Below, piece by piece: positions 4,757 to 50,512 of a DNA stretch of 64,000 bases. Source of the DNA: Gluconobacter sp. Dm-62 (lineage in GTDB: Bacteria > Pseudomonadota > Alphaproteobacteria > Acetobacterales > Acetobacteraceae); assembly GCF_018256155.1 (NCBI RefSeq), contig NZ_JAERLY010000007.1, positions 62,001 through 126,000 of the forward strand, given 5' to 3'. The position numbers and the translations under genes are program-made. A model generated the notes under the pieces. It did no database searches, was not told where the DNA came from, and saw only the letters and a list, made by a program, of their open reading frames with translations. Position 1 is the first letter of the stretch. Each line of letters begins with the position of its first letter.

Positions 4757-5713
4757 ATGAACGTTTTTCAGGCCATGACCACCTTTATGGCGGTCGTCGA
4801 AACAGGAAGCATGACCGCTGCCGGAGAACGGTGCGGCATTTCTCCCACGATGGTGGGCAATTACGTGCGCCTGCTGGAGGAACGTCTGGGCACGAGCCTT
4901 CTGCGACGCACCACGCGCCGGCAGAGCCTCACGGCTTTCGGCGCGGTCTATTTCGAGAAATGCCAGTCCATTCTCAACCTGCTGGATGAGACCGAACATC
5001 TGGCACAGGCGGCGCAGACCCTCCCCTCCGGCACTTTGCGGGTCACGGCCCCCGTCACATACGGCACCCAGAGCGTTACGCCCTGTCTGGCGCGGTATCT
5101 GGCTGAAAATCCGTCCGTGGATGTCGATCTGGTGCTGACGGAACGCAGTGTGGACCTGACGCATGAGAAGTTCGACATCGCGATCCGCCTTGGCGTGCCG
5201 GAGCCTTCCTCGCTCATGTGCCGCCGTCTGACGGATTACCGCATGACGCTCTGCGCCTCCCCGGATTATCTCGCCCGCCGGGATGAACTTCTGGTTCCGC
5301 AACAGCTTGCGACGCATGATGCGCTGGCCTTTGCCTATACGCCGTCGTCGCCCTGGCACTGGGCGCGGCATGAATGGCATTTCGAGAGCCCCAAGGGCCG
5401 CGTGACGGTGGAAATGCGCCGGCGGGGGCTCTTCAACAGCACGCAGGCCATGCGGCGTGCGGCTCTGGGCGGGCTGGGCATTGCGATGCTGCCGACCGAT
5501 CTGGTGCAGGACGATCTGAAAGCAGGGACGCTTCAGGCGCTCCTGCCCGATTACACCCTGCCCTCACGGCCGATCTATCTGCTTTATCACAAGGAACGCT
5601 ACAGCGCGCCGACGCTGCATTCCTTCATCCAGTTCATGATGCGCAATCTTGGCGACCGCCATACAGGTCTGAGCCAGACAGGAGCGGGGCACGCCGATCC
5701 CGGACAGTCATGA
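4757..5713 (+). CDS. LysR-family transcriptional regulator
   Basis: LysR-type regulator of 318 residues. It has an N-terminal winged helix-turn-helix (about 1-60, MTAAGERCGISPTMVGNYVR) and a C-terminal periplasmic-binding-protein-like effector domain (about 88-295). The HTH and the LYHKERY segment near the C-terminus are typical of the large CrgA/DsdC-like subgroup found in proteobacteria. It diverges from ggt and overlaps the next transporter by four bases (ATGA), so both neighbours are likely targets. There is no strong Shine-Dalgarno sequence before ATG 4757, but the protein start fits the family. Confidence 0.9.
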   Translation: MNVFQAMTTFMAVVETGSMTAAGERCGISPTMVGNYVRLLEERLGTSLLRRTTRRQSLTAFGAVYFEKCQSILNLLDETEHLAQAAQTLPSGTLRVTAPVTYGTQSVTPCLARYLAENPSVDVDLVLTERSVDLTHEKFDIAIRLGVPEPSSLMCRRLTDYRMTLCASPDYLARRDELLVPQQLATHDALAFAYTPSSPWHWARHEWHFESPKGRVTVEMRRRGLFNSTQAMRRAALGGLGIAMLPTDLVQDDLKAGTLQALLPDYTLPSRPIYLLYHKERYSAPTLHSFIQFMMRNLGDRHTGLSQTGAGHADPGQS

Positions 5714-38115: not shown

Positions 38116-39351
38116 CTAAACTTCCGAGCATACTCCATTATAAACACGGCAGACGGGCCGGATGCCGCCTATCCAGTAAGACAGCTCGGGCGGACCTGTA
38201 ATATCCCACAAAGCCAGATCGGCCCGCATTCCCTCACGCAGCATCCCGACTTCACGCTCAAGCCCCAGAGCCCTCGCCCCCACGGACGTGACCGCCCGGA
38301 AACTCTCCTCGGGTGTCAGACGAAAAAGCGTGCATCCCATATTCATAACGGCAGTCAGCCCCAGAACCGGGGATGTTCCGGGATTGCAGTCCGTGGCGAG
38401 CCCGATATCGACCTTGTGCCTGCGCAGCAATTCAACGGGCGGAACCTGCTTTTCCCGTATGAAGTAAAATGCCCCCGGCAGCAGCATCGCAACCGTCTTC
38501 TGGCGCCCCATACTGACGACGGCCTCTTCATCCGCATATTCGAGATGATCGGCTGACAGCCCATTATAACGCGTCGCCAGAACAGCCCCCCCACCCAGAG
38601 AAAGCTGCTCCGCATGAATACGCACTGGAAGTCCAAGCTTCCGTGCGGCTTCAAAAAGGATTTCCGTCTGGGCAGGCGAAAAGGCAATGGTTTCGCAAAA
38701 GGCGTCCACACTATCGATCAGCTTCTCAGCGTGAAGCGCCGGCAAAACCTCATCAATCAGAAATGCCAGATAGGCATCAGCACGGCCCTGATATTCAGGC
38801 GGCACAGCATGAGCGCCCAGAAATGTCTTATGGACACGGATCGGCAGCGTCTCACCGATGGCTCGCGCGACCCGCAACTGTTTCAGTTCATCCGCGAGCG
38901 TCAGACCATACCCTGATTTCACTTCCAGCGAGGTCGTCCCCTCCTGGATCATTGTCTTGACCCGCCTCAGAGAGACGTCCAGCAACTCATGCTCCGAGGC
39001 CGCACGTGTTGCTGTCACCGTGGAAAGTATGCCGCCGCCTTTGCGGGCAATGTCTTCATAAGACACGCCGTTCAGGCGCTGCGCGAATTCATGACTGCGA
39101 TCGCCCGCAAAAACCACATGCGTATGGGCATCGATCAGCCCCGGTGTCAGCCATCCGCCACGGCCATCCTCGATCCTGCCGGCTAGACTTTCCGGCGTCC
39201 CGGGCAGATCTGCTTCTGCCCCGACCCAGCAGATCATGCCATCCCGGATTCCCACGGCCCCGTTACGGAGACATCCATACCCATCCTCAGGTGTGATGAG
39301 AGTGTCATCGCCTGTCGCAAGATGGACATTGAGCCAAAGGGTATCCCACAT
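38116..39351 (-). CDS. hutI: imidazolonepropionase
   Basis: Third enzyme of histidine degradation, hydrolysing imidazolone-5-propionate to N-formimino-L-glutamate. The 411-residue amidohydrolase has the metal motif [12 protein letters not shown] (about 75-86), [25 protein letters not shown] (third metal His region) and LATDCNPGT (metal Asp). GGAG lies eight bases before ATG 39351. It diverges from hutF across a palindromic HutC-like operator. The 204 bases beyond its 3' end, towards the receptor, hold no gene I can support. Confidence 0.96.
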
Positions 39352-39384: not shown

Positions 39385-39400
39385 ATATGTATATACATAT
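39385..39400. promoter_or_regulatory. HutC-like operator between hutI and hutF
   Basis: Perfect 16-base palindrome ATATGTATATACATAT, centred on TGTATATACA, between the divergent hutI (39351) and hutF (39485) starts. HutC repressors in proteobacteria bind dyads of this TGTA-N2-TACA form. It is the strongest of the hut operators seen here. Confidence 0.85.
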
Positions 39401-39484
39401 CAGTCAATCCCATTATGATCCTTTCCGGAGAACAGGAGGCGCTTTCACCAAAGGCTTCCGTGCCGTGCAACCTGGAATTTCGTG

Positions 39485-40855
39485 ATGACCGAATTGTTTG
39501 CAAAACAGGCCCTTCTTCCAGACGGATGGCGCCGCAATGTCCGAATCACCGTAGCGAAAGACGGGACTTTTTCATCCATTATCCCTGACAGCGCCTTCAG
39601 CGCAGACATGCAGCGTTACGACGTGGTGATCCCAACCCAGATCAGCCTCCATTCGCATGCCTTCCAGCGCGCCATGGGCGGCCTCGCTGAAAGGAAACAG
39701 AACCCGGACGACACGTTCTGGACATGGCGCACGCGCATGTATCAGCTCGCACATCGCATTTCGCCCGAACAGATGCAGGACGTAGCCGCATTCCTGTATA
39801 TGCAAATGCTGAAAGCCGGCTATTCCCAGGTTGCCGAGTTCCACTACCTCCATAACGCGGTGGACGGACGTCCCTATGCGTCCCCGGCCGAAATGTCCTC
39901 CCGCCTCGCCGCCGCAGCCACGGATGCAGGCATCGGGATTACACTGCTGCCGACCCTCTATGCCCGAGGCGGATTTGACGGCAGCCCCCTGAATGAAGCC
40001 CAGAAGCGTTTCTCCAGCACCTCTGAGACGATCGCCGACATTCTTTCGGACCTTCAGGCCGAGTGGCACGGCTCACAGCTGGTCAGAACAGGCATTGGGC
40101 TGCATTCGCTAAGAGCGGTAGACATCCAAAGTGTCTCACCTCTCCTGCAGGCCGCAGGGCCAGGCGCACCAATCCATATCCACATTGCCGAACAGCAGCG
40201 TGAGGTGGACACATGCCTGTCCATCACGGGACAGCGCCCCGTAGATCACCTGATGAGCCATGCTTCCATCGATGCCCGCTGGTGTCTGGTTCACGCTACG
40301 CATCTCTCAGACGACGAAGTCACCGCCATCGCGCGCTCCACAGCCGTGGCAGGGCTCTGCCCGATTACCGAAGCCAATCTTGGCGATGGGATCTTCCCGT
40401 TCGAAGCCTATGTTGCCCAGGGTGGCCGCTTCGGCATCGGCAGCGACAGCAACGTCCTGCTCAGCCCGTGGGAAGAGCTGCGCCTGCTGGAATATGGCCT
40501 GCGCCTGCAACGCCAGAAACGCTGCATCGCCCTGCCCCCGGGCCAGAAAGGATCAATCGGCGCCTGGCTGTATCATCAGTGCCTTGCCGGAGGCGCACAG
40601 GCCTGTGGCGTATCCCTTGATGGCCTGCGTCCAGGCGCCCGCGCAGATCTCTGCGTCATCGACGAGCAGGCATTGTCCCTGCCGGACCTGCAGGAAGACG
40701 ACATTCTCGATTCAGCCATTTTCGCCACCTCACATCCCCCGGTCCGCCACGTCATGTGCGCCGGACAATGGCGCATCACCGACGGCCACCATGCCGACGA
40801 AGTGCGGCTGACACAGGCTTTCCACGCAACACTGCGCACCCTGATGGCTGCCTGA
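39485..40855 (+). CDS. hutF: formimidoylglutamate deiminase
   Basis: Amidohydrolase of 456 residues that converts N-formimino-glutamate to N-formyl-glutamate and ammonia, the deiminase branch of histidine degradation. It has metal motif SLHSHAFQRAMGGLAER (about 55-71), IHIHIAEQQREVD, LVHATHLSDDE and GSDSNVLLSPWEE. I start at ATG 39485; a GTG codon directly precedes it. Its presence with hutG defines the five-step route ending in glutamate and formate. hutG follows 18 bases downstream. Confidence 0.95.
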   Translation: MTELFAKQALLPDGWRRNVRITVAKDGTFSSIIPDSAFSADMQRYDVVIPTQISLHSHAFQRAMGGLAERKQNPDDTFWTWRTRMYQLAHRISPEQMQDVAAFLYMQMLKAGYSQVAEFHYLHNAVDGRPYASPAEMSSRLAAAATDAGIGITLLPTLYARGGFDGSPLNEAQKRFSSTSETIADILSDLQAEWHGSQLVRTGIGLHSLRAVDIQSVSPLLQAAGPGAPIHIHIAEQQREVDTCLSITGQRPVDHLMSHASIDARWCLVHATHLSDDEVTAIARSTAVAGLCPITEANLGDGIFPFEAYVAQGGRFGIGSDSNVLLSPWEELRLLEYGLRLQRQKRCIALPPGQKGSIGAWLYHQCLAGGAQACGVSLDGLRPGARADLCVIDEQALSLPDLQEDDILDSAIFATSHPPVRHVMCAGQWRITDGHHADEVRLTQAFHATLRTLMAA

Positions 40856-40873: not shown

Positions 40874-41680
40874 ATGACGAACATATTCTCCTTTACCTCC
40901 GGCACCCTCCCGATCCTGGTCACAATCCCCCATGCGGGTGACCGTCTAGCGCCCGGCATGGACGAGCGCATGACCCCACGCGGCAGAAGACTGCCCGATA
41001 CCGACTGGTACATGGAGCACCTGTATGCCTTCGCCCTTTCAAAGGGGATCGGTATCCTGCGTGCGAATTTCTCCCGCTATGTCGTTGACCTGAACCGCGG
41101 CCGGGATGACGCCGCCCTGTACGCCGGCCGGCCAAGCACCGGTCTGGTGCCCCTGCTGGGGTTCGATGGCCAGCCCATCTATCTGGAAGGGCAAGAGCCG
41201 GATGCAGCAGAGATCGCCGAACGGACGGAGCGCTACTGGAAGCCCTATCACGACGCCGTACAGGCTGAACTGAACCGCCTGAAAGAACAGTTTGGATGGG
41301 CCATTCTGTGGGACGCCCATTCCATCTGTTCGGAAATTCCCAGACTGTTTGAAGGACGCCTCCCGGACCTGAATTTCGGCACCAACAGCGGCCAGTCCTG
41401 CGCCCCGGCTCTGGCCGAAACAATCATGGCCCGTGCAGAAACACTGCCGTCCTACACCCATGTCCGGGATGGCCGCTTCAAAGGCGGTTACACGACCCGT
41501 CACTATGGCCAACCCGCTTCTGACATCCACGCCATTCAGCTGGAAATCGCACAATCCACCTATCTGGCTTCCGAACGTGATCCGTGGCCGATCAATCTTC
41601 AGACCGCCGCGCATCTCTCCACGGCGATCGAACAACTGCTTGATGCCGCTACCGACTGGCGCCCTGCTTCCAAGTTTTGA
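40874..41680 (+). CDS. hutG: N-formylglutamate deformylase
   Basis: Last enzyme of the route, hydrolysing N-formyl-L-glutamate to glutamate and formate. The 268-residue protein has the FGase-family motifs VTIPHAGDRL, ANFSRYVVDLNRGRDD and WDAHSICSEIP, with likely metal and catalytic His/Asp residues. It is co-transcribed with hutF. It ends 12 bases before the convergent hutD gene. Confidence 0.95.
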   Translation: MTNIFSFTSGTLPILVTIPHAGDRLAPGMDERMTPRGRRLPDTDWYMEHLYAFALSKGIGILRANFSRYVVDLNRGRDDAALYAGRPSTGLVPLLGFDGQPIYLEGQEPDAAEIAERTERYWKPYHDAVQAELNRLKEQFGWAILWDAHSICSEIPRLFEGRLPDLNFGTNSGQSCAPALAETIMARAETLPSYTHVRDGRFKGGYTTRHYGQPASDIHAIQLEIAQSTYLASERDPWPINLQTAAHLSTAIEQLLDAATDWRPASKF

Positions 41681-41692
41681 GCGCCAGCATGA

Positions 41693-42283
41693 TTAATCGG
41701 GGATGACGAGATACAGAAGAGCATCATCCCCGACTTCTGATCTGAGAATTCCGCCCACCTCATCGGGCAAAACAAGAACTTCCCTTTCCCGACAGATCCG
41801 CACCTGTCCGGTAGCGCTTGCGAACCTCCACCGCCCCCGCACACTGACAAACGCGGCACCGCAGGGCACATCGAAATCCTGATCATCCGCTGCCGTGAAG
41901 GCCATCAGCCGACCGGCATGCGAAAATGGATGCATCAGGTTCACCACCTGCACAGGACCATCCACAAGGACAGCATCAACACCGAGCTCTCCGGAAAACG
42001 TGACGATTTCGCCAGCCCGAACAACCTCCCGCTCCGTACCATCGGAAAGGAGAAGCCGCACACCACGCCCCTTCAACAAGGCAATATGCCGCATAATCCC
42101 CGGAAAGCGCGAGAATGCGCCGTCCCGCGTGATATCCGCTACGCTCAGGCGCCAGCCCTCATGACTGGCGATGACTCTGGTCAGCCCACCACCGTTTCGC
42201 CAAGGCTGTGACGGAACACCGTCAACAGGTTGCGGCATACGGTTCAGCGGGAAAAGATTGTCATTTTCCGGATCCGGCTTCAT
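41693..42283 (-). CDS. hutD: HutD-family cupin
   Basis: HutD protein of 196 residues, a bicupin-fold family found in hut loci and proposed to govern or buffer pathway flux; the biochemical role is unresolved. Family motifs include PWRNGGGLTRVIA, WRLSVADITRDGAFSRFPG and FSGE in the cupin core. AGGA precedes ATG 42283. It is monocistronic, convergent with hutG and divergent from hutC, with a HutC-like site in between. Confidence 0.9.
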   Translation of the reverse strand: MKPDPENDNLFPLNRMPQPVDGVPSQPWRNGGGLTRVIASHEGWRLSVADITRDGAFSRFPGIMRHIALLKGRGVRLLLSDGTEREVVRAGEIVTFSGELGVDAVLVDGPVQVVNLMHPFSHAGRLMAFTAADDQDFDVPCGAAFVSVRGRWRFASATGQVRICREREVLVLPDEVGGILRSEVGDDALLYLVIPD

Positions 42284-42406: not shown

Positions 42407-43132
42407 GTGTCGCAGATCCTGGACAAGACGAAGACGGTTGCACGCTACGAACAGGTGAAGGCGTTCATCATTGAACGCATCGACTGTGGAGAGTGGAAGG
42501 TCGGCCATCGGCTGCCATCAGAACATGAGTTCGTCGAACAGCTCGGCGTCTCGCGGATGACAATTCATCGGGCGCTACGTGAACTGACGGCCGACGGCAT
42601 TGTCCGCCGCGCCCAAGGGGTTGGAACATTCGTCGCCCAGCCCGCAAAACGCGTCGAGCTTCTGGAAATCCGCGATATCATTGACGACATCGTCGCCAGC
42701 GGCCACCAGCATCGTGCTGAAGTCATTGCCATCGAGACCGTCCGCGCCGACAGCGATCTTGCAACCGCATTCGAGCAACGCCCCGGCGCGCGCCTGTTCC
42801 GCTCCCTGATCGTCCATTACGAGGACGACCTGCCACTTCAGCTGGAAGAGCGGTATGTCTCGCCGCATTTTGCGCCGGATTATCTGGAGCAGGACTTCAC
42901 CCGTATCAATCCTCACCGCCACCTGTACGGCATCGCCGGCCCGGAAGAGATCGAGCATGTCGTGTTCGCGGTAACCCCGCCCCAGCACATCTGCGACCTT
43001 CTCCAACTCCAAAAGCCCGAAGCCTGTCTGCAACTGATGCGCCGGACCTGGGTCGAAGGCCGGGTCGTCATGAAGGGCATCTTCACATATTCGGGCAACC
43101 GCTACAGTTTCGGCGGACGTTACCGGCCCTGA
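42407..43132 (+). CDS. hutC: histidine utilization repressor HutC
   Basis: GntR-family repressor of 241 residues with an N-terminal winged HTH (LPSEHEFVEQLGVSRMTIHRAL, about 36-57) and a C-terminal UTRA effector domain that binds urocanate in characterised homologues. The start is GTG 42407, supported by AGGGGAG six bases upstream and by the family N-terminus. It lies between hutD and hutH with HutC-like dyads on both sides. It likely represses all hut transcription units and perhaps the redoxin-oxygenase gene. Confidence 0.95.
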   Translation: MSQILDKTKTVARYEQVKAFIIERIDCGEWKVGHRLPSEHEFVEQLGVSRMTIHRALRELTADGIVRRAQGVGTFVAQPAKRVELLEIRDIIDDIVASGHQHRAEVIAIETVRADSDLATAFEQRPGARLFRSLIVHYEDDLPLQLEERYVSPHFAPDYLEQDFTRINPHRHLYGIAGPEEIEHVVFAVTPPQHICDLLQLQKPEACLQLMRRTWVEGRVVMKGIFTYSGNRYSFGGRYRP

Positions 43133-43199: not shown

Positions 43200-43211
43200 T
43201 TGTATAGACAA
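43200..43211 (+). promoter_or_regulatory. HutC-like operator before the hutH-like gene
   Basis: TTGTATAGACAA has TTGT/ACAA arms and differs from the palindromic TTGTATATACAA core at one position. It ends 15 bases before the GTG start. The same 11-mer TTGTATAGACA recurs at 50501. Confidence 0.7.
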
Positions 43212-43225
43212 CCAAGAGTGCCTTC

Positions 43226-44716
43226 GTGACCGAACTCCTGCTCGATCAGCCGCTTTCTCCGCAGGACATCTGCGACATTGCACGAAACCGAAAAAAGCTC
43301 CGGCTCTCTGAAGCATCACGAAAGCGGCTTGAGGACGCGCACAGACGCCTGCGCATCCTGGTGGAGGGAGAAGCGGCCGCCTACGGTCTCAATACGGGTG
43401 TTGGCGGCCTCTCCGACATCCTGATCACTCCGGAAAAACAGTCCACCCTGTCCCGCAAAATTCTGTTCAGCCATGCCACCGGCATTGGGCAACCGCTCAG
43501 CGCCGAAGCAACACGCGCCATCATGGCCTGCGCCGTCAATGAATATTGTCTGGGCTATTCAGGCCTGCGCGCAGAAATCGTCGATCGCCTTGTTGCACTT
43601 CTGAATTACGACTGCCTTCCGATCGTCCCACGAGATGGCTCAGTCGGATATCTCACCCATATGGCCCATATTTCCCTGACCCTGATCGGGTACGGAACTC
43701 TGAAGGTGGACAACACGGAACAGCCCGCCGCGGAAGTTCTCAAGCGGCTCGGTTTCGAACCCTTGGTTCTGGAAGCAAAAGAAGGCCTGTGTCTGGTCAA
43801 CGGCCTGTCCTGCGCCACCGGAATTGCCAGCCTCGTCACCGAAGAGGCCACCACCTGTCTGCAGTGGGCGGACCGGATCGCCGCCGCAACCTTTGACGTC
43901 CTTGGAGGACAGCAGCGTGCATTCGATCCTCGATCAGCCAGACTGCGCACCATGCCCGGCCATCAGACCGTATCGCACGCCCTCAACAGGGACCTGGCAG
44001 GCTCGGCACGGATAGCGAAGTCTCAGGGCCAGCGAACGCAGGATGCCCTGAGCCTGCGCGCCATTCCCCATATTCACGGATCTGTTCACGATGCGCTCGC
44101 CAGTATCCGCCAGACCATCACACAGGAATTGGCCAGCCTGTCCGACAACCCTGCCATTCTCGAAGACGAAACAGGCATCGGCGCCTTTTCCGAAGCCCAT
44201 GCGGTAGGTGCGAGCATCGCACGAGTCATGGACGAGGCCTCCATCGCGCTGGCCTCTCTGGGCGCAATTTCCGAACGGCGTCTGGACCGCATGGTCAATC
44301 CTTTGACCAGCCCGTTCCCGGCCTTCCTGTCGAGCGATTCCGGAACCGGAAGCGGCTTCATGATCGCCCAGTACACGGCCGCCTCACTTGTCAGCGCCAA
44401 CCGCCGCAATGCCTTACCAGCCAGTCTGGACGGCGGCGTTACCTCAGGGCTTCAGGAAGATATTCTGGTGCATGCAACACCCGCCGCCCTCAAGGCGCGC
44501 GACGTTGTCACCAATACACGTTCCATTCTCGCCATCGAACTGCTGGCCCTCTGTCAGGCCAGGGATCTCGCAGACCTCACTCAGGAAGTCGCCCCTCATA
44601 CACGGGCTCTCTACAACAGCGTGCGGGGCATCATCCCCCTCTATGAAGAAGACCATCCTCTGGCGGCCGATATCGCCCGTCTCGAAGTCCTGATGCAGGA
44701 AGGCCCCTCCCCCTGA
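43226..44716 (+). CDS. hutH: histidine ammonia-lyase-like protein lacking the MIO triad
   Basis: HAL/PAL-family protein of 496 residues, by position the HutH of this pathway (histidine to urocanate and ammonia). Tyr53 (YGLNTGVG), His83 (LFSHATGIG), Asn192 (LVNGLS), Gln272/Arg278 (QDALSLR) and GLQED match histidase active-site positions. The Ala-Ser-Gly triad that cyclises to the MIO electrophile is missing: GSVG (138-141) runs straight into YLTHMAHIS, leaving an exact three-residue gap. The usual Tyr280 is Leu275. It may be a divergent active enzyme or a paralogue. The start is GTG 43226; a HutC-like site precedes it. Confidence 0.8.
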   Translation: MTELLLDQPLSPQDICDIARNRKKLRLSEASRKRLEDAHRRLRILVEGEAAAYGLNTGVGGLSDILITPEKQSTLSRKILFSHATGIGQPLSAEATRAIMACAVNEYCLGYSGLRAEIVDRLVALLNYDCLPIVPRDGSVGYLTHMAHISLTLIGYGTLKVDNTEQPAAEVLKRLGFEPLVLEAKEGLCLVNGLSCATGIASLVTEEATTCLQWADRIAAATFDVLGGQQRAFDPRSARLRTMPGHQTVSHALNRDLAGSARIAKSQGQRTQDALSLRAIPHIHGSVHDALASIRQTITQELASLSDNPAILEDETGIGAFSEAHAVGASIARVMDEASIALASLGAISERRLDRMVNPLTSPFPAFLSSDSGTGSGFMIAQYTAASLVSANRRNALPASLDGGVTSGLQEDILVHATPAALKARDVVTNTRSILAIELLALCQARDLADLTQEVAPHTRALYNSVRGIIPLYEEDHPLAADIARLEVLMQEGPSP

Positions 44717-44725
44717 CGCGAGAAG

Positions 44726-45931
44726 TCAGCAGGCTTCGGTCAGAGGAGCATCCTGCCGTGCGTTCCCTTCGGACTGTCGGATTTCCCTGAGCAGCACCGG
44801 CAACCCGAACGGAATACTGACAACACAAGCCGCACAGCCTGCAATACCCAGCATCGTAAAGGAGGAATGATCAATGATCAGCCCTCCAAACGGCGCCCCC
44901 AAAGCATATCCCATACGGTCCATACCACCACAGAACGTCCCGGTCCGCCCCGTATGGTCCAGCGCAGCCGCACTGCCGAGCAGCCATGCGTAAGACAGCA
45001 TGGAGCAGTTCCAGTAGATGATGACGCCCGCCGTATAGCTCCAGGAATCCCACGCTGAACACGCAAGAAGCCCTCCGACCCCCGTTCCCACGAGCGTCAG
45101 AGGCAGAATGATCTCCCTGCGAAGGCTGCCCGCCAGCGCTCCGACAACAAAGCTGACCAGAACACTCGACACGATCCCTACCGTCGAGAGAAAGACAATA
45201 TAGTCAGCTGAAAGATGAATGGCCCGGCCAACGCGCTCGGCAAAAGACCATGCCATGCTCGATCCCAGAGACGATCCGACCCAAATAAACAGCAGGGCTA
45301 CCCCGCCGGGCGTCAGACGCATCTTTTCCGTGCTCTGGCGAGTAGGGAGCGGCGGGGCATGACGGAGCGTCACCATGAAAGGCGCAATAAGCGCAACAAT
45401 GGCCGCGATACCAACAAACACGCCCAGCGCGCCAAAACTCCGGGTTGCGTAAGGAATGGCATCGATCACCGCAACCAGAACGATAAGTCCCCCACCGTTT
45501 GAAATGGCGTACATCCGGTCCGGGTTCTTACTCGCCGATGCCGCACAGACATAGGACCGTCCCAGAAATGCCTCTCCCAGACCAAAGAGGATGGCGCAGC
45601 CCCATGTCCACAGCGATGATGCAGGGCCAGCCGCCGTCAGGAGCGACGAAACAGCCGCCAGCCCTGCCCCCAGAAAAGCCGTCATGACAACTGAAACCCG
45701 CCCCTTCAGACGGGACAGCACCATCATGAAAACCGCAAAGGCCATGATTTCGAAAAAGCCAAACATCCCCGCCCGACTGGCGGACTGATGCAGCCCCGAC
45801 ATCAGCGCATCGATCTGAAAGGGCATGACGGATGAACCGAGATACGCACACCCGGAGCAGATGCTGAGCCCCAGAGCGAGAAGCAGAAGCTGCCGCCCCG
45901 GGAAAGAACGGGTCGCGTGTATCCCTGTCAT
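44726..45931 (-). CDS. MFS transporter in the hut island
   Basis: Major facilitator protein of 401 residues with about twelve hydrophobic helices, starting RQLLLLALGLSICSGCAYLGSSV. I do not recognise a substrate-specific subgroup. Its position, downstream of hutU and convergent with the hutH-like gene, suggests import of histidine or urocanate, because no HutT-type permease or ABC system is present in the window. A terminator separates it from hutU and I saw no HutC-like dyad before it. The C-terminal tail (about 385-401) is hydrophilic. Confidence 0.75.
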   Translation of the reverse strand: MTGIHATRSFPGRQLLLLALGLSICSGCAYLGSSVMPFQIDALMSGLHQSASRAGMFGFFEIMAFAVFMMVLSRLKGRVSVVMTAFLGAGLAAVSSLLTAAGPASSLWTWGCAILFGLGEAFLGRSYVCAASASKNPDRMYAISNGGGLIVLVAVIDAIPYATRSFGALGVFVGIAAIVALIAPFMVTLRHAPPLPTRQSTEKMRLTPGGVALLFIWVGSSLGSSMAWSFAERVGRAIHLSADYIVFLSTVGIVSSVLVSFVVGALAGSLRREIILPLTLVGTGVGGLLACSAWDSWSYTAGVIIYWNCSMLSYAWLLGSAAALDHTGRTGTFCGGMDRMGYALGAPFGGLIIDHSSFTMLGIAGCAACVVSIPFGLPVLLREIRQSEGNARQDAPLTEAC

Positions 45932-45998: not shown

Positions 45999-47693
45999 TC
46001 ATTTCCTGTTCGTAATCATGGGCAGGTTCAAGCCCTTTTCATGCGCACAGGAAACAGCAATGTCATAGCCGGCATCGGCATGGCGCATCACGCCCGTGGC
46101 CGGATCATTCCACAGCACACGCCCCAGACGGGCCGCGGCATCTTCTGTGCCATCTGCGACAATGACCATGCCCGAATGCTGGGAAAATCCCATGCCCACA
46201 CCGCCGCCATGGTGCAGCGACACCCAGGTCGCCCCCGAAGCGGTATTGAGCAGTGCATTCAGCAAAGGCCAGTCGGAAACGGCATCGGACCCATCGCGCA
46301 TAGCCTCTGTTTCACGATTGGGGCTCGCCACCGAACCACTGTCCAGATGATCGCGCCCGATTACAATCGGAGCCTTCAGCTCTCCGTTGGCCACCATCTC
46401 GTTGAACGCCAGACCCAGCCGGTGACGATCCCCGAGACCTACCCAGCAGATCCGGGACGGAAGGCCCTGGAACTGGATTTTCTCCCGCGCCATATCGAGC
46501 CAGTTGTGCAGATGCTTGTCGTCCGGAAGCAGTTCCTTGACCTTCGCATCCGTCTTGTAGATGTCCTCCGGATCACCCGACAGCGCCGCCCAGCGGAACG
46601 GACCAATCCCACGGCAAAACAGCGGCCGGATATAGGCAGGGACGAAACCCGGGAACGCAAAGGCATCTTCCAGCCCCTCTTCGAGCGCCATCTGGCGGAT
46701 ATTGTTGCCGTAATCGAACGTCGGTACGCCCATCCGGTGAAACGCCACCATGGCCTCGACCTGAAGCCGCATGGACTCCCGCGCCGCCTTTTCAACCGCC
46801 GCCGGATCCGTGATCCGCAGCTTCTCCGCCTTCTCCAGCGACCAGCCCGCAGGCAGATAGCCGTTCAACGGATCATGGGCGGACGTCTGGTCCGTCACCC
46901 CATCCGGACGGACGCCACGCCGCACCAGTTCCGGAAAAACTTCAGCAGCATTTCCCAAAAGACCCACGGAAACAGCCTCGCCCTTCGCACAGGCCTCATG
47001 AATGATTTCCAGCGCCTCATCCAGATCCTGCACCTGCCGGTCCAGATACCCCGTCTCCAGACGCTTCTGGATACGCGACGGCTCACATTCCACGGCAAGC
47101 ATGGATGCACCCGCCATCACGGCGGCCAGCGGCTGCGCACCGCTCATGCCCCCCAGACCACCCGTCAGGATCCAGCGCCCCTTGAGGTCACCGCCGTAAT
47201 ACTGACGGCCCATTTCAACGAAGGTCTCGTACGTTCCCTGAACAATTCCCTGACTTCCGATATAGATCCAGGACCCGGCCGTCATCTGGCCGTACATCAT
47301 CAGACCCGCCCGATCGAGCTCGTTGAACTTCTCCCAGGTGGCCCAGTGCGGCACGAGGTTTGAGTTCGCAATCAGGACACGCGGCGCATTGGAATGCGTC
47401 CGGAACACCCCAACCGGCTTGCCGGACTGCACAACCAGCGTCTCCTCATCGCCAAGTTCCCGCAGGCATTCCACGATCCGGTCATAGCAGTCCCAGTTGC
47501 GTGCTGCCCGACCGATACCGCCATAGACAACAAGCTCCGAAGGCTTCTCCGCGACTTCCGGGTCGAGGTTATTCATCAGCATCCGCATGGCCGCTTCAGT
47601 CTGCCATGACTTCGCAGTGATTTCGGAGCCATGGTCGGCACGGATCACACGATCATTCGACAGGCGGGAAGACACGGAAGGAGAATTGACCAT
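45999..47693 (-). CDS. hutU: urocanate hydratase
   Basis: Urocanase, the second step of the pathway, using tightly bound NAD+ to make imidazolonepropionate. The 564 residues fit the usual size of about 555. Nearly invariant stretches include [40 protein letters not shown] and [20 protein letters not shown] with the active-site Cys region. I chose ATG 47693 because GGAG lies nine bases upstream; two in-frame starts up to 47714 lack a site. It follows the TonB receptor by 47 bases with no terminator between, so they form one unit. Confidence 0.96.
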
Positions 47694-47740
47694 GAGTAAG
47701 GTCTCCATTTTCACAGGAACAGAAAGAGGTTTGGAAAAGT

Positions 47741-50131
47741 TCAGAAGCCGGCCGCCACGGTCATCGCAGTCGTAAATCGCGGCGCGATGTAATATCCGGG
47801 AGAACTTCCATCAATCGAGGTCCCGTAAATGCCCCTTGCGGTCTGGGCATTCAGCTGGGGCGACGCAATACCGGACAGGACTTTCTCGTCTGTCAGGTTG
47901 ATGAATGCGACCCGGATTTCCGGATGTTTGACAAATCCGACACTCGGCAGCCGATATCCCAGCGACAGATTAAACGTCTTGTAAGCGGGCATTTTCTCGT
48001 CGTTCATGAACGTCGAATACTGGGACCCGGTGTACTTGAACGAAAACGTTCCGAAGAAATTCTTGTAGTCATACACAAGGCCGAAAGAGCCTTGGAACGA
48101 AGGACTGCGGACCGCCGTTTTCCCCGCCGTCGGCAGATAGTCGTTTCCAACCTGAATATTGTTATCGATGGTTGCGTGAAGATATTCGACGGAAACATAC
48201 GGGGAGAAGCCATAAAACGGCATCAGTCCGGCTTCGAAATCCACACCGCGAGACGTCTGCCCGCCACCATTGATCGTCGAATAGACGGGGACGTTATTGA
48301 CATAGCGAAGGCTGGAAACCTGACGGTTCGTGAAGTTGTAGTTGAACAGCGCCAGGCTGGCATGAACGGTTTTGTCCTGATACCGGTAGCCCAGCTCTTC
48401 AGAGATCGAATATTCAGGTTTGATCGCCGGATTACCCTGCGTTGAAACCGCCCCGCCGGAATAGGAATTATACAGGGTGTCATCAATCGGCATTAATGTA
48501 TTGGTGCTCGCATTGATGAAGACCTGATTGTGGGAATCAATCTTGTACGTCGCCGAGACACGGGGCAGCGGCTGGAAATTATTGGCGCCCACATGATACT
48601 GCGTCCCCGGCAGACCATTGGTTCCCGCCTTGCTCATCATCAGCGTCTTGATGCCACCCACGATCTTCAGGCGATCATTGAGAAGCGAGATCTCGTCCTG
48701 CAGATAAAGCGCATTCGTCTGCGTAACGGTATGCTCCTTCTCGGCAAGATATGGCTGACCATTGCCCATGGTCACATTCTGCAGACTCCAGGCCGAAGCA
48801 GCATTTCCAATCGAATCAACCGACGAAAACGGCATCGACAGATCATCAACGCTGTACTGATACCAGTATCCCAGCGTCACCTTCTGAACACCGAACTGGC
48901 GCGAAAGCGACGCGTTGAACCCGCCGACAGACTGCGCGCCCACATAATCGCTTCGCACGCTCCCTCCCGAGGCCTGAGCATCCGGAATATTTACGGAAAC
49001 AGGCTGTGTCCCGTAATAATTTCCATCAGACGACAGCGTGGAAGATGCCGGTGAATTCTGCATCGCATACAGGAAATACGGCGTGACATTGAGCTTCACC
49101 TTGCCCGGAAGCGTAAAGTCGGACGGGAGACTCATCATGATCTGCTCCCATTTCCAGCGGTTCTGGCGCCAGTAATCCGAGCTCCCAGGTGAAAATGTCC
49201 CGTTCCACGCATAACTCCGCCCCGAAGCCTGCCAGTCAGCCAGTGTCGGGTTCGGGTTGTACATGTAGTTCATATCGACATAGGAACCGACCAGCTTCAT
49301 CTGGTCCCCGTTCGCAAATTCCTTCTTGAACCCGAAATCGATATGCCGACGCATCTGTCGTCCCGGGCCAAGCGAGTTTTTCGCGGTCCCGTTGGAAAAC
49401 GAGACATAGGCGGACAGGCCCGTATTCCCGATATCCCCGGTATCGAAACGTCCATAGAAACGCTGCAGGTTCAGCGTTCCGTAACTGTAGTCGATCAGGC
49501 CGCCCATTTTATGGGCAGGATCGCGCATTGAGGTCGTGACCTGCCCGCCCGACGCATTAACCACAGGCGCGGTAATGGATGACGATCCCTGCGTCAGGCT
49601 GACGGAATCAATATCTTCCCCATCGGCCCAGTAGGTCGGATAACCGTTGTAAGTTTCGATATCGTTGACAGGCATCCCTTCCCAGACCTGCCCGATCTCA
49701 TTCCCGCCAAGTCCACGTACGCTGAGCAGGGAATTGGCGGCAAACCCATAAGGATCGCTCTGGGAAAGATTGGCGCCGGGAGCCAGCGAAACAGCCTGAT
49801 AGGCCGTCGTCGTCGAAGCCTGCTTGTTGATATATTCCGAGGTCACGGTGCTGCGCATGTCGCCGCCCGTCTGAACTGCCATCAGTCCGCCACCCGCGAT
49901 ATGCCGGACCTTGCCATACGCACCATCCTCACCCGCAGCATGAACGGAAATGACTTCAGGATCATGTGCACTGACAGCGTGCGGTTTTCTTTTTTGCGGG
50001 GTCGCAGCAACATGGGCCGGCAATCTGGTATGCGAATGCGTCGGTGCCGCAGCTCCAGCCAGAGAGGTCGACGCCAGAAACGTCATGGTGGAGAGAGCAA
50101 CACAAGCATGACGGCTTTTGACGATTGGCAT
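47741..50131 (-). CDS. TonB-dependent receptor co-transcribed with hutU
   Basis: Outer-membrane receptor of 796 residues. A signal peptide (about 1-28, [16 protein letters not shown]) is followed by a His/Lys-rich linker, GGGLMAVQT, a plug with [19 protein letters not shown] and a barrel ending MTVAAGF. It is a homologue of the receptors at 7149 and 35479. Placement directly upstream of hutU in the same orientation suggests uptake of histidine, urocanate or a histidine-containing or metal-chelating compound; this is inference. The promoter region has a 14-base palindrome resembling the HutC dyad. Confidence 0.88.
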
Positions 50132-50500: not shown

Positions 50501-50512
50501 TTGTATAGACAT
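50501..50512 (+). promoter_or_regulatory. HutC-like site before the redoxin-oxygenase gene
   Basis: TTGTATAGACAT matches the site before the hutH-like gene (TTGTATAGACAA) at 11 of 12 bases. It lies 73 bases before the chosen start of the oxygenase gene. It links that gene to the hut regulon by inference. Confidence 0.6.

Follow-up and report, generated by a model that had tools for sequence, protein, structure and literature searches.

A histidine ammonia-lyase-like protein without the MIO-forming triad in a Gluconobacter hut island, a candidate lyase for hercynine

Described lyases and the HutHx protein

In the HAL/PAL/TAL superfamily, aminomutases are MIO enzymes, and histidine ammonia-lyase (HutH, EC 4.3.1.3) is marked by an MIO-forming Ala-Ser-Gly triad. 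In the accessible portion of PMC11432326, the SH motif and Met380 are assigned to the recognition of histidine, and an Asn, a Gln and an Arg to its ammonium group and carboxylate; Tyr277 helps Glu411, and Phe325 stabilises the cationic intermediate. The closest described exception is ergothionase, which the accessible portion of PMC13405746 presents as a trimethylamine-lyase with a HAL-like structure and without MIO. By this precedent, the HAL fold is capable of MIO-free elimination from a betaine. The product of ergothionase is thiourocanate, and in ergothioneine utilisation (NCBIfam ErtD, ErtE, thiohydantoin desulfurase and thiourocanate hydratase) the MIO-free lyase is followed by a hydratase of the HutU family and by ring opening towards glutamate. 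The route proposed below has the same outline; unlike ergothioneine utilisation, it joins the ordinary hut pathway and requires no desulfurase.

In this work, we analysed a stretch of 64,000 nucleotides (the window) on contig C50 of a Gluconobacter genome (3.46 Mb in 52 contigs, assembly 99.99% complete). The gene at 43226-44716 (+ strand), here called HutHx, starts with GTG and encodes 496 amino acids with zero internal stops; reading frame, profiles, alignment and fold describe it as a HAL-fold protein without Ala-Ser-Gly. Its predicted fold is that of the HAL/PAL/TAL superfamily and is closest by Z to Thermoplasma acidophilum HAL (7tqr) and a tyrosine aminomutase (3kdz), at 45.2 each; in 7tqr the MIO site is shown as X, unlike in HutHx. 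The scores lie below both NCBIfam hutH cut-offs (437.4 bits against 539 for TIGR01225, and 433 against 524 for the second model). After GSVG, HutHx continues with YLTHMAHISL and canonical HutH with ASGDLAPLAHMSL, which leaves HutHx three residues shorter on balance at the MIO site. The earlier note had read this as the loss of exactly Ala-Ser-Gly; the three-residue deletion stands, but which residues are missing hinges on gap placement, since MAFFT sets the gap at Ser-Gly-Asp with Ala replaced by Tyr142. Its view that the frame is intact and a sequencing slip unlikely agrees with the lack of stops and with the recurrence of the motif in five Gluconobacter genomes and in all of the best 80 of 585 confirmed stretches. 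These best 80 of 585 loci, retained by similarity to the HutHx query, all lack Ala-Ser-Gly. Sequencing error and a decayed gene were ruled out by the presence in five Gluconobacter genomes and by dN/dS values of 0.10-0.14 (Nei-Gojobori, 10 Gluconobacter pairs), which point to purifying selection on HutHx in this genus. As judged from its sequence, HutHx is part of a conserved clade of Proteobacteria with the motif GS[VA]GYL. The HAL entries with GSVGYLTHMAH that the earlier note had mentioned do exist: 171 plasmid records match HutHx at E<=1e-100, the motif was read in six of them, and among the 30 records listed 14 bear the name histidine ammonia-lyase at the match, whereas the other 16 lack a gene or an annotation at that place.

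For the comparison of active sites, 174 HAL-family open reading frames were reduced to 148 distinct rows, comprising 83 with the HutHx motif, 46 canonical, six closest to the C11 protein (the second HAL-family protein of this genome, described below) and 13 others. Canonical rows were defined by the motif GSVGASGDLAPL together with more than 50% identity to Gluconobacter HutH, and the 13 others include two Ala-Ser-Gly rows with GSVGASGDLSPL (L140 and L143). Since the 83 HutHx rows were picked by the motif at the Ala-Ser-Gly site, and not by the active-site positions scored, they are not a separate test of the absence of that triad. HutHx keeps Tyr53, His83, Asn192, Gln272, Arg278, Met379 and Glu411 (P. 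putida Y53, H83, N195, Q277, R283, M382 and E414), and these seven residues are kept in 83 of 83 HutHx rows. The first five, and the replacement of Tyr280 by Leu275, had been pointed out before and were all seen in the alignment; two further changes, Phe329 to Ala326 and Val386 to Tyr383, had been overlooked. Set against the 46 canonical rows, every one of the 83 rows has Leu for Y280, Ala for F329 and Tyr for V386; L178, a homologue not included in the alignment, carries Ile in place of Tyr280. Ser82 is invariant in the 37 rows of a smaller alignment (A1). Compared with canonical HutH of P. putida (1b8f), HutHx is without Ala-Ser-Gly and carries Y280L, F329A and V386Y, and of the residues that mark HutH it has the SH motif, Met382, Glu414 and Arg283 and is without Tyr280 and Phe329. 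Taken with the residue roles in the accessible portion of PMC11432326, these counts indicate that the imidazole- and carboxylate-binding residues are unchanged and that Tyr280 and Phe329, near the MIO, have given way to smaller residues; in this alignment, the altered positions are on the amino-group side.

The ergothionase of T. denticola (6s7j), also of the HAL superfamily, resembles HutHx in having no Ala-Ser-Gly and a Leu at the Tyr280 position, and a HAL fold without the MIO triad, predicted in the case of HutHx, is common to both. It differs in a shortening of one residue at the Ala-Ser-Gly site against three in HutHx, and in the replacement of Met382 by Gly, Asn195 by Ser and Val386 by Lys, where HutHx keeps Met382 and Asn195. 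HutHx neither groups with ergothionase in trees nor is linked to a thiourocanate hydratase or desulfurase. Two trees place the HutHx rows in a single clade (100/100) that excludes 6s7j and the C11-type rows. The unrooted tree of 63 chosen rows joins HutHx to canonical HutH (84/65), and in the unrooted tree of 39 rows, which omits five long-branch or distant rows (L023, L160, L170, L171 and L172), all rows without MIO stand on one side of a branch (99/91). As neither tree is rooted and the two differ with the choice of taxa, the expression 'has lost' is not proven for the MIO.

The hut island and its HutC-type operators

The island has the order HutI-HutF-HutG-HutD-HutC-HutHx-MFS-HutU-TonB receptor. 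It had been called complete, and HutI (imidazolonepropionase, 38116-39351, - strand; TIGR01224, 428 bits, cut-off 298), HutF (formimidoylglutamate deiminase, 39482-40855, +; NF006684, 616 bits, cut-off 525), HutG (N-formylglutamate deformylase, 40874-41680, +; TIGR02017, 329 bits, cut-off 279), the GntR family repressor HutC (42407-43132, +; TIGR02018, 267.5 bits, cut-off 220) and HutU (45999-47714, -; TIGR01228, 967 bits, cut-off 375) do all exceed their NCBIfam cut-offs. HutU is an ordinary urocanate hydratase; as a thiourocanate hydratase it was rejected (696 bits, cut-off 930). The gene at 41693-42283 (-), whose sole NCBIfam match is Ves, far under the cut-off, we take to be a HutD-like protein of the HutD/Ves family. 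The MFS transporter (44726-45931, -; PF07690, 42.6 bits, cut-off 33.4) has 90-97% identity to its counterparts in the other four Gluconobacter HutHx loci, and is proposed to be the substrate importer. The TonB-dependent receptor (TonB2, 47741-50131, -; an open reading frame named by inspection) is 94-97% identical in the same four loci, lies upstream of HutU and MFS on the same strand, and is proposed to serve uptake across the outer membrane.

The consensus of the HutC site is TGTA-N2-TACA in the accessible portion of PMC12977541. With at most one mismatch allowed, four occurrences of TGTATATACA in the window compare with an expectation of 0.17; one is in the hutI/hutF gap, one within hutF, one 16-25 bases ahead of HutHx and one upstream of the TonB2-HutU-MFS genes. 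The site between the divergent hutI and hutF is a perfect HutC-type operator (39388-39397, +). The one preceding the GTG of HutHx (43201-43210, +) reads TGTATAGACA, with one mismatch to TGTATATACA, and is given as the putative HutC site TTGTATAGACAA; the operator-like TGTATAGACA at 50502-50511 (+) lies about 370 bases upstream of the TonB2-HutU-MFS genes. An operator stands at -25 likewise in the four other Gluconobacter HutHx loci, and Acetobacter okinawensis has a HutC box at -55 of HutHx. A scan of the 300 bases preceding HutHx in 74 loci outside Gluconobacter, and in Komagataeibacter, found no HutC box. The HutHx operon of the eight Caballeronia-type loci is headed by an SBP gene whose 5' end carries a site (positions 5506-5561, with SBP starts called at 5481-5614); a further two sites are found between HutHx and HutU. 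From these operator sites, HutHx appears to be under HutC, and thus induced by urocanate, in the Gluconobacter and Caballeronia-type groups, which would fit an enzyme that produces urocanate. By cluster and by operator, HutHx belongs to the hut pathway.

Distribution and neighbourhoods of HutHx

The genome of the window contains two PF00221 proteins, HutHx and the C11 protein (L002), both without Ala-Ser-Gly; the PF00221 search of this nearly complete assembly found no Ala-Ser-Gly-bearing HAL or canonical HutH. The description of HutHx as the only HutH of a complete hut island is thereby borne out, and the alternative offered with it, a side paralogue with a canonical histidase elsewhere, fails for this organism. 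The C11 protein reads GSIG-CAD, and its best solved relative is ergothionase. Its operon places an MFS transporter on one side of the lyase gene and, on the other, hydantoin-5-propionate amidohydrolase (745 bits, cut-off 600), N-carbamyl-L-glutamate amidohydrolase (564 bits, cut-off 520), thiohydantoin desulfurase (605, cut-off 440) and thiourocanate hydratase (994, cut-off 930). This operon is one of ergothioneine utilisation and not of the hut type, so its lyase is an ergothionase by context; given these enzymes, the pairing of HutHx with HutU parallels that of ergothionase with thiourocanate hydratase. The same gene set was found in L049 (Gluconobacter G015), L165 (Acetobacter nitrogenifigens) and L166 (Acetobacter sp. 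DsW_063). A TonB-receptor-like gene is also present in the C11 operon (L048:2315-15532), and in Gluconobacter G021 the thiourocanate hydratase-like gene (C10:58994-60600) is split into two frames.

Within the genus, 26 Gluconobacter genomes were sampled (G000, which is that of the window, and 25 others). HutHx is present in five (G000, G006, G007, G018 and G021) and HutH with Ala-Ser-Gly in nine (G002, G006, G008, G010, G015, G016, G019, G024 and G025), both together only in G006. HutU occurs in 14 of the 26, that is, in all 13 genomes with either protein, the five HutHx genomes included, and in G011. The last has a cluster with HutC, HutI, HutF, HutG, HutU and a HutD-like protein (L173), in a genome without a PF00221 match. 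In Gluconobacter, the gene order of the HutHx island differs from that of the canonical hut island. The canonical island of G006 has full-length matches to all hut enzymes; in its HutHx island, HutI, HutF and HutG are broken, and HutHx, HutC, HutD, MFS, HutU and TonB2 are kept. This decay of the shared downstream steps, with HutHx kept beside a good HutH, indicates that HutHx does something that HutH does not.

In an evenly drawn class sample, HutHx was found at E<=1e-120 in 8 of 387 genomes, that of the window included. Outside Gluconobacter, 33 HutHx genomes of unstated completeness, picked for spread from the best 80 of 585 loci, were searched for HAL-family genes. In twenty-nine of them a HutH scoring 600 bits or more is present as well, with Ala-Ser-Gly read in one per genome (L130-L158). 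Komagataeibacter (G060) has HutHx only, Acetobacter okinawensis (G061) has HutHx with another HAL-like gene without Ala-Ser-Gly (C78) and a broken HutHx-like paralogue, and G070 and G079 have no full-length HutH at 600 bits or more, only shorter or lower-scoring pieces. The paralogue in A. okinawensis (L167:15719-17210) is of the GSVGYL type and lies about 8-10 kb from the intact HutHx. HutU is present in 33 of 33, in 32 over nearly the whole profile and in G070 over 428 of 545 positions. The 29 genomes with both enzymes, together with the pattern in G006, argue that HutHx is not redundant with histidase. As HutU accompanies HutHx in all 33 picked and all five Gluconobacter genomes, and in eight loci HutU comes directly after HutHx behind a transporter, the product of HutHx should be urocanate.

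A flank survey of 82 loci (L032-L035 and L052-L129, window excluded) gave at least one hut gene in 73 and none in nine; in 53 of the 73 this was only a HutC-like regulator, a count that may take in other GntR proteins, and HutU was found in 19. The survey covers L095 and L108, which showed no HutHx in the gene-order survey, probably through gene-call errors. Eight loci (seven of Caballeronia and one of Burkholderia sp. Leaf177) have the order SBP-permease-permease-ATPase-HutHx-HutU-(HutD)-HutI-HutF-HutG. The Sinorhizobium gene comes after an SBP of the glycine-betaine type (OpuAC, 208 bits) and an ATPase of the ProV type. This family speaks for hercynine as the substrate; against it, the transporter is described as one for histidine with betaines as further substrates. 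A single Paraburkholderia SBP was searched, and its best scores were with octopine- and nopaline-binding proteins (214.7 and 213.8 bits; the LAO-binding protein scored about 105); octopine and nopaline are N-alpha-substituted amino acids. The Asp at the alpha-ammonium site, a position which we assume to meet the alpha-ammonium group in amino-acid SBPs, is kept in 65 of 65 opine-type SBPs; hence the site does not discriminate, and the transporter is no proof of a quaternary ligand. In Paraburkholderia xenovorans (L065:5503-14599), HutHx is flanked by a pair of HutC-like regulators and by two sets of ABC transporter genes.

Proposed reaction and competing readings

Hercynine is N-alpha-trimethylhistidine (histidine betaine), an ergothioneine precursor made by fungi and some bacteria. 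We propose, with a probability of about 0.6, that HutHx is an MIO-free lyase of the HAL superfamily which converts an N-alpha-modified histidine to urocanate, most likely hercynine with release of trimethylamine. On chemical grounds, a quaternary ammonium group lacks the lone pair needed for addition to the MIO and, being cationic, can leave without it; the MIO electrophile would thus be dispensable. The space vacated by the MIO (Tyr142, Leu275 and Ala326) could house the methyl groups, the retained Tyr53/Glu411 set would catalyse, and His83 and Met379 would help to hold the imidazole. Urocanate would then induce the HutC-controlled genes and pass through HutU-HutI-HutF-HutG to glutamate, with trimethylamine released. 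The exchange of Met382 and Asn195 for Gly and Ser in ergothionase rows may accommodate the thione; as HutHx keeps both residues, the simplest reading is an unsubstituted imidazole with a trimethylated nitrogen, which is hercynine. The weakest step is the trimethyl identity of the substrate, which we infer by analogy, and other N-alpha substituents would fit the same changes.

We also lean towards the wider view that a widespread 'HutH' subfamily is an MIO-free hercynine trimethylamine-lyase, opening an undescribed route from hercynine through urocanate to glutamate, and that the hut islands of acetic acid bacteria serve a betaine and not histidine. In Gluconobacter with HutHx alone, the island would serve hercynine rather than histidine. 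Among the matches listed in the open-access literature, outside which most subscription papers fall, we found no hercynine lyase or hercynine catabolism; the open-access matches listed held no account of the HutHx subgroup either. If the proposal is true, a large set of genes named histidine ammonia-lyase, such as those in the 171 plasmid records, is misnamed, genomes with HutHx alone are wrongly predicted as histidine degraders, and bacteria have a defined route that consumes a fungal betaine and releases trimethylamine. HutHx would then be a second family, besides ergothionase, that pairs the absence of MIO with a changed leaving group, so that the question why HAL needs MIO would become testable within one fold.

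The substrate could instead carry another N-alpha modification and still yield urocanate, as with mono- or dimethyl-histidine or an opine-type N-carboxyalkyl derivative such as histopine. The opine-type relatives of the Paraburkholderia SBP and the gene annotated as N-methyl-L-tryptophan oxidase that comes after HutHx in Thalassospira point in this direction, but without MIO a protonatable secondary or tertiary amine would gain little leaving-group advantage over histidine, and the ergothionase precedent takes a trimethylated substrate; we consider such substrates unlikely. It is less likely than an N-alpha-modified substrate, and rather improbable, that HutHx deaminates L-histidine and acts as the HutH of these islands. 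In favour of this, four Gluconobacter genomes and Komagataeibacter have a complete island with HutHx as the sole HutH-like gene, the histidine-binding residues of HutHx are kept, and aspartase, an ammonia lyase of another family, works without MIO. However, a canonical HutH is also kept in 29 of the 33 other genomes and in G006, and Y280L and F329A fall on residues of the catalytic side. Moreover, the MIO-deficient S154A variant of PAL completely lost hydroamination activity on two substrates, according to the accessible portion of PMC12535398. The suggestion in the earlier note that urocanate is made without the MIO electrophile thus keeps its support as regards MIO-free urocanate formation, but histidine is probably not the substrate, in view of the HutH retained in most genomes and the changes on the amino side.

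The missing prosthetic group might also speak for a non-catalytic or regulatory HAL paralogue. This is very improbable, given that all 83 rows retain seven active-site residues, Tyr53 and Glu414 among them, that the gene is under purifying selection, and that HutHx stands directly between importer and HutU in the Caballeronia-type loci. Hardly credible is a second ergothionase, even though the Ala-Ser-Gly-less HAL fold and the Leu at the Tyr280 position are shared with that enzyme. A full ergothioneine operon with its own Ala-Ser-Gly-less lyase is already in the genome, and in Caballeronia G082 such a lyase (L163) adjoins thiourocanate hydratase-like and desulfurase-like genes; the separate HutHx clade, the retained Met382 and Asn195, replaced by Gly and Ser in 6s7j and in the rows of ergothionase type, and the window HutU below the thiourocanate hydratase cut-off argue in the same sense. 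The identity of HutHx as ergothionase was rejected on the HutU score, the C11 operon and the trees.

Some HutHx loci and relatives stand in other settings. On a plasmid of Thalassospira marina (L184:10690-11877), the oxidase gene after HutHx is solA, perhaps for N-methylated histidine. On a plasmid of Rhizobium daejeonense (L187:7991-14743), the neighbours of HutHx are a fatty acid desaturase on one side and cytochrome c, 2Fe-2S and molybdopterin-binding genes on the other; no hut genes are annotated in this stretch, which represents a different pathway context. Further HAL subfamilies without Ala-Ser-Gly were seen at L117:1757-3427, L162:5259-7790, L161:4625-6205 and L171:3265-5103; they carry GSIGAADL, GSIGAGDL and GTLGEGDL motifs and have Leu or Glu at the Tyr280 position.
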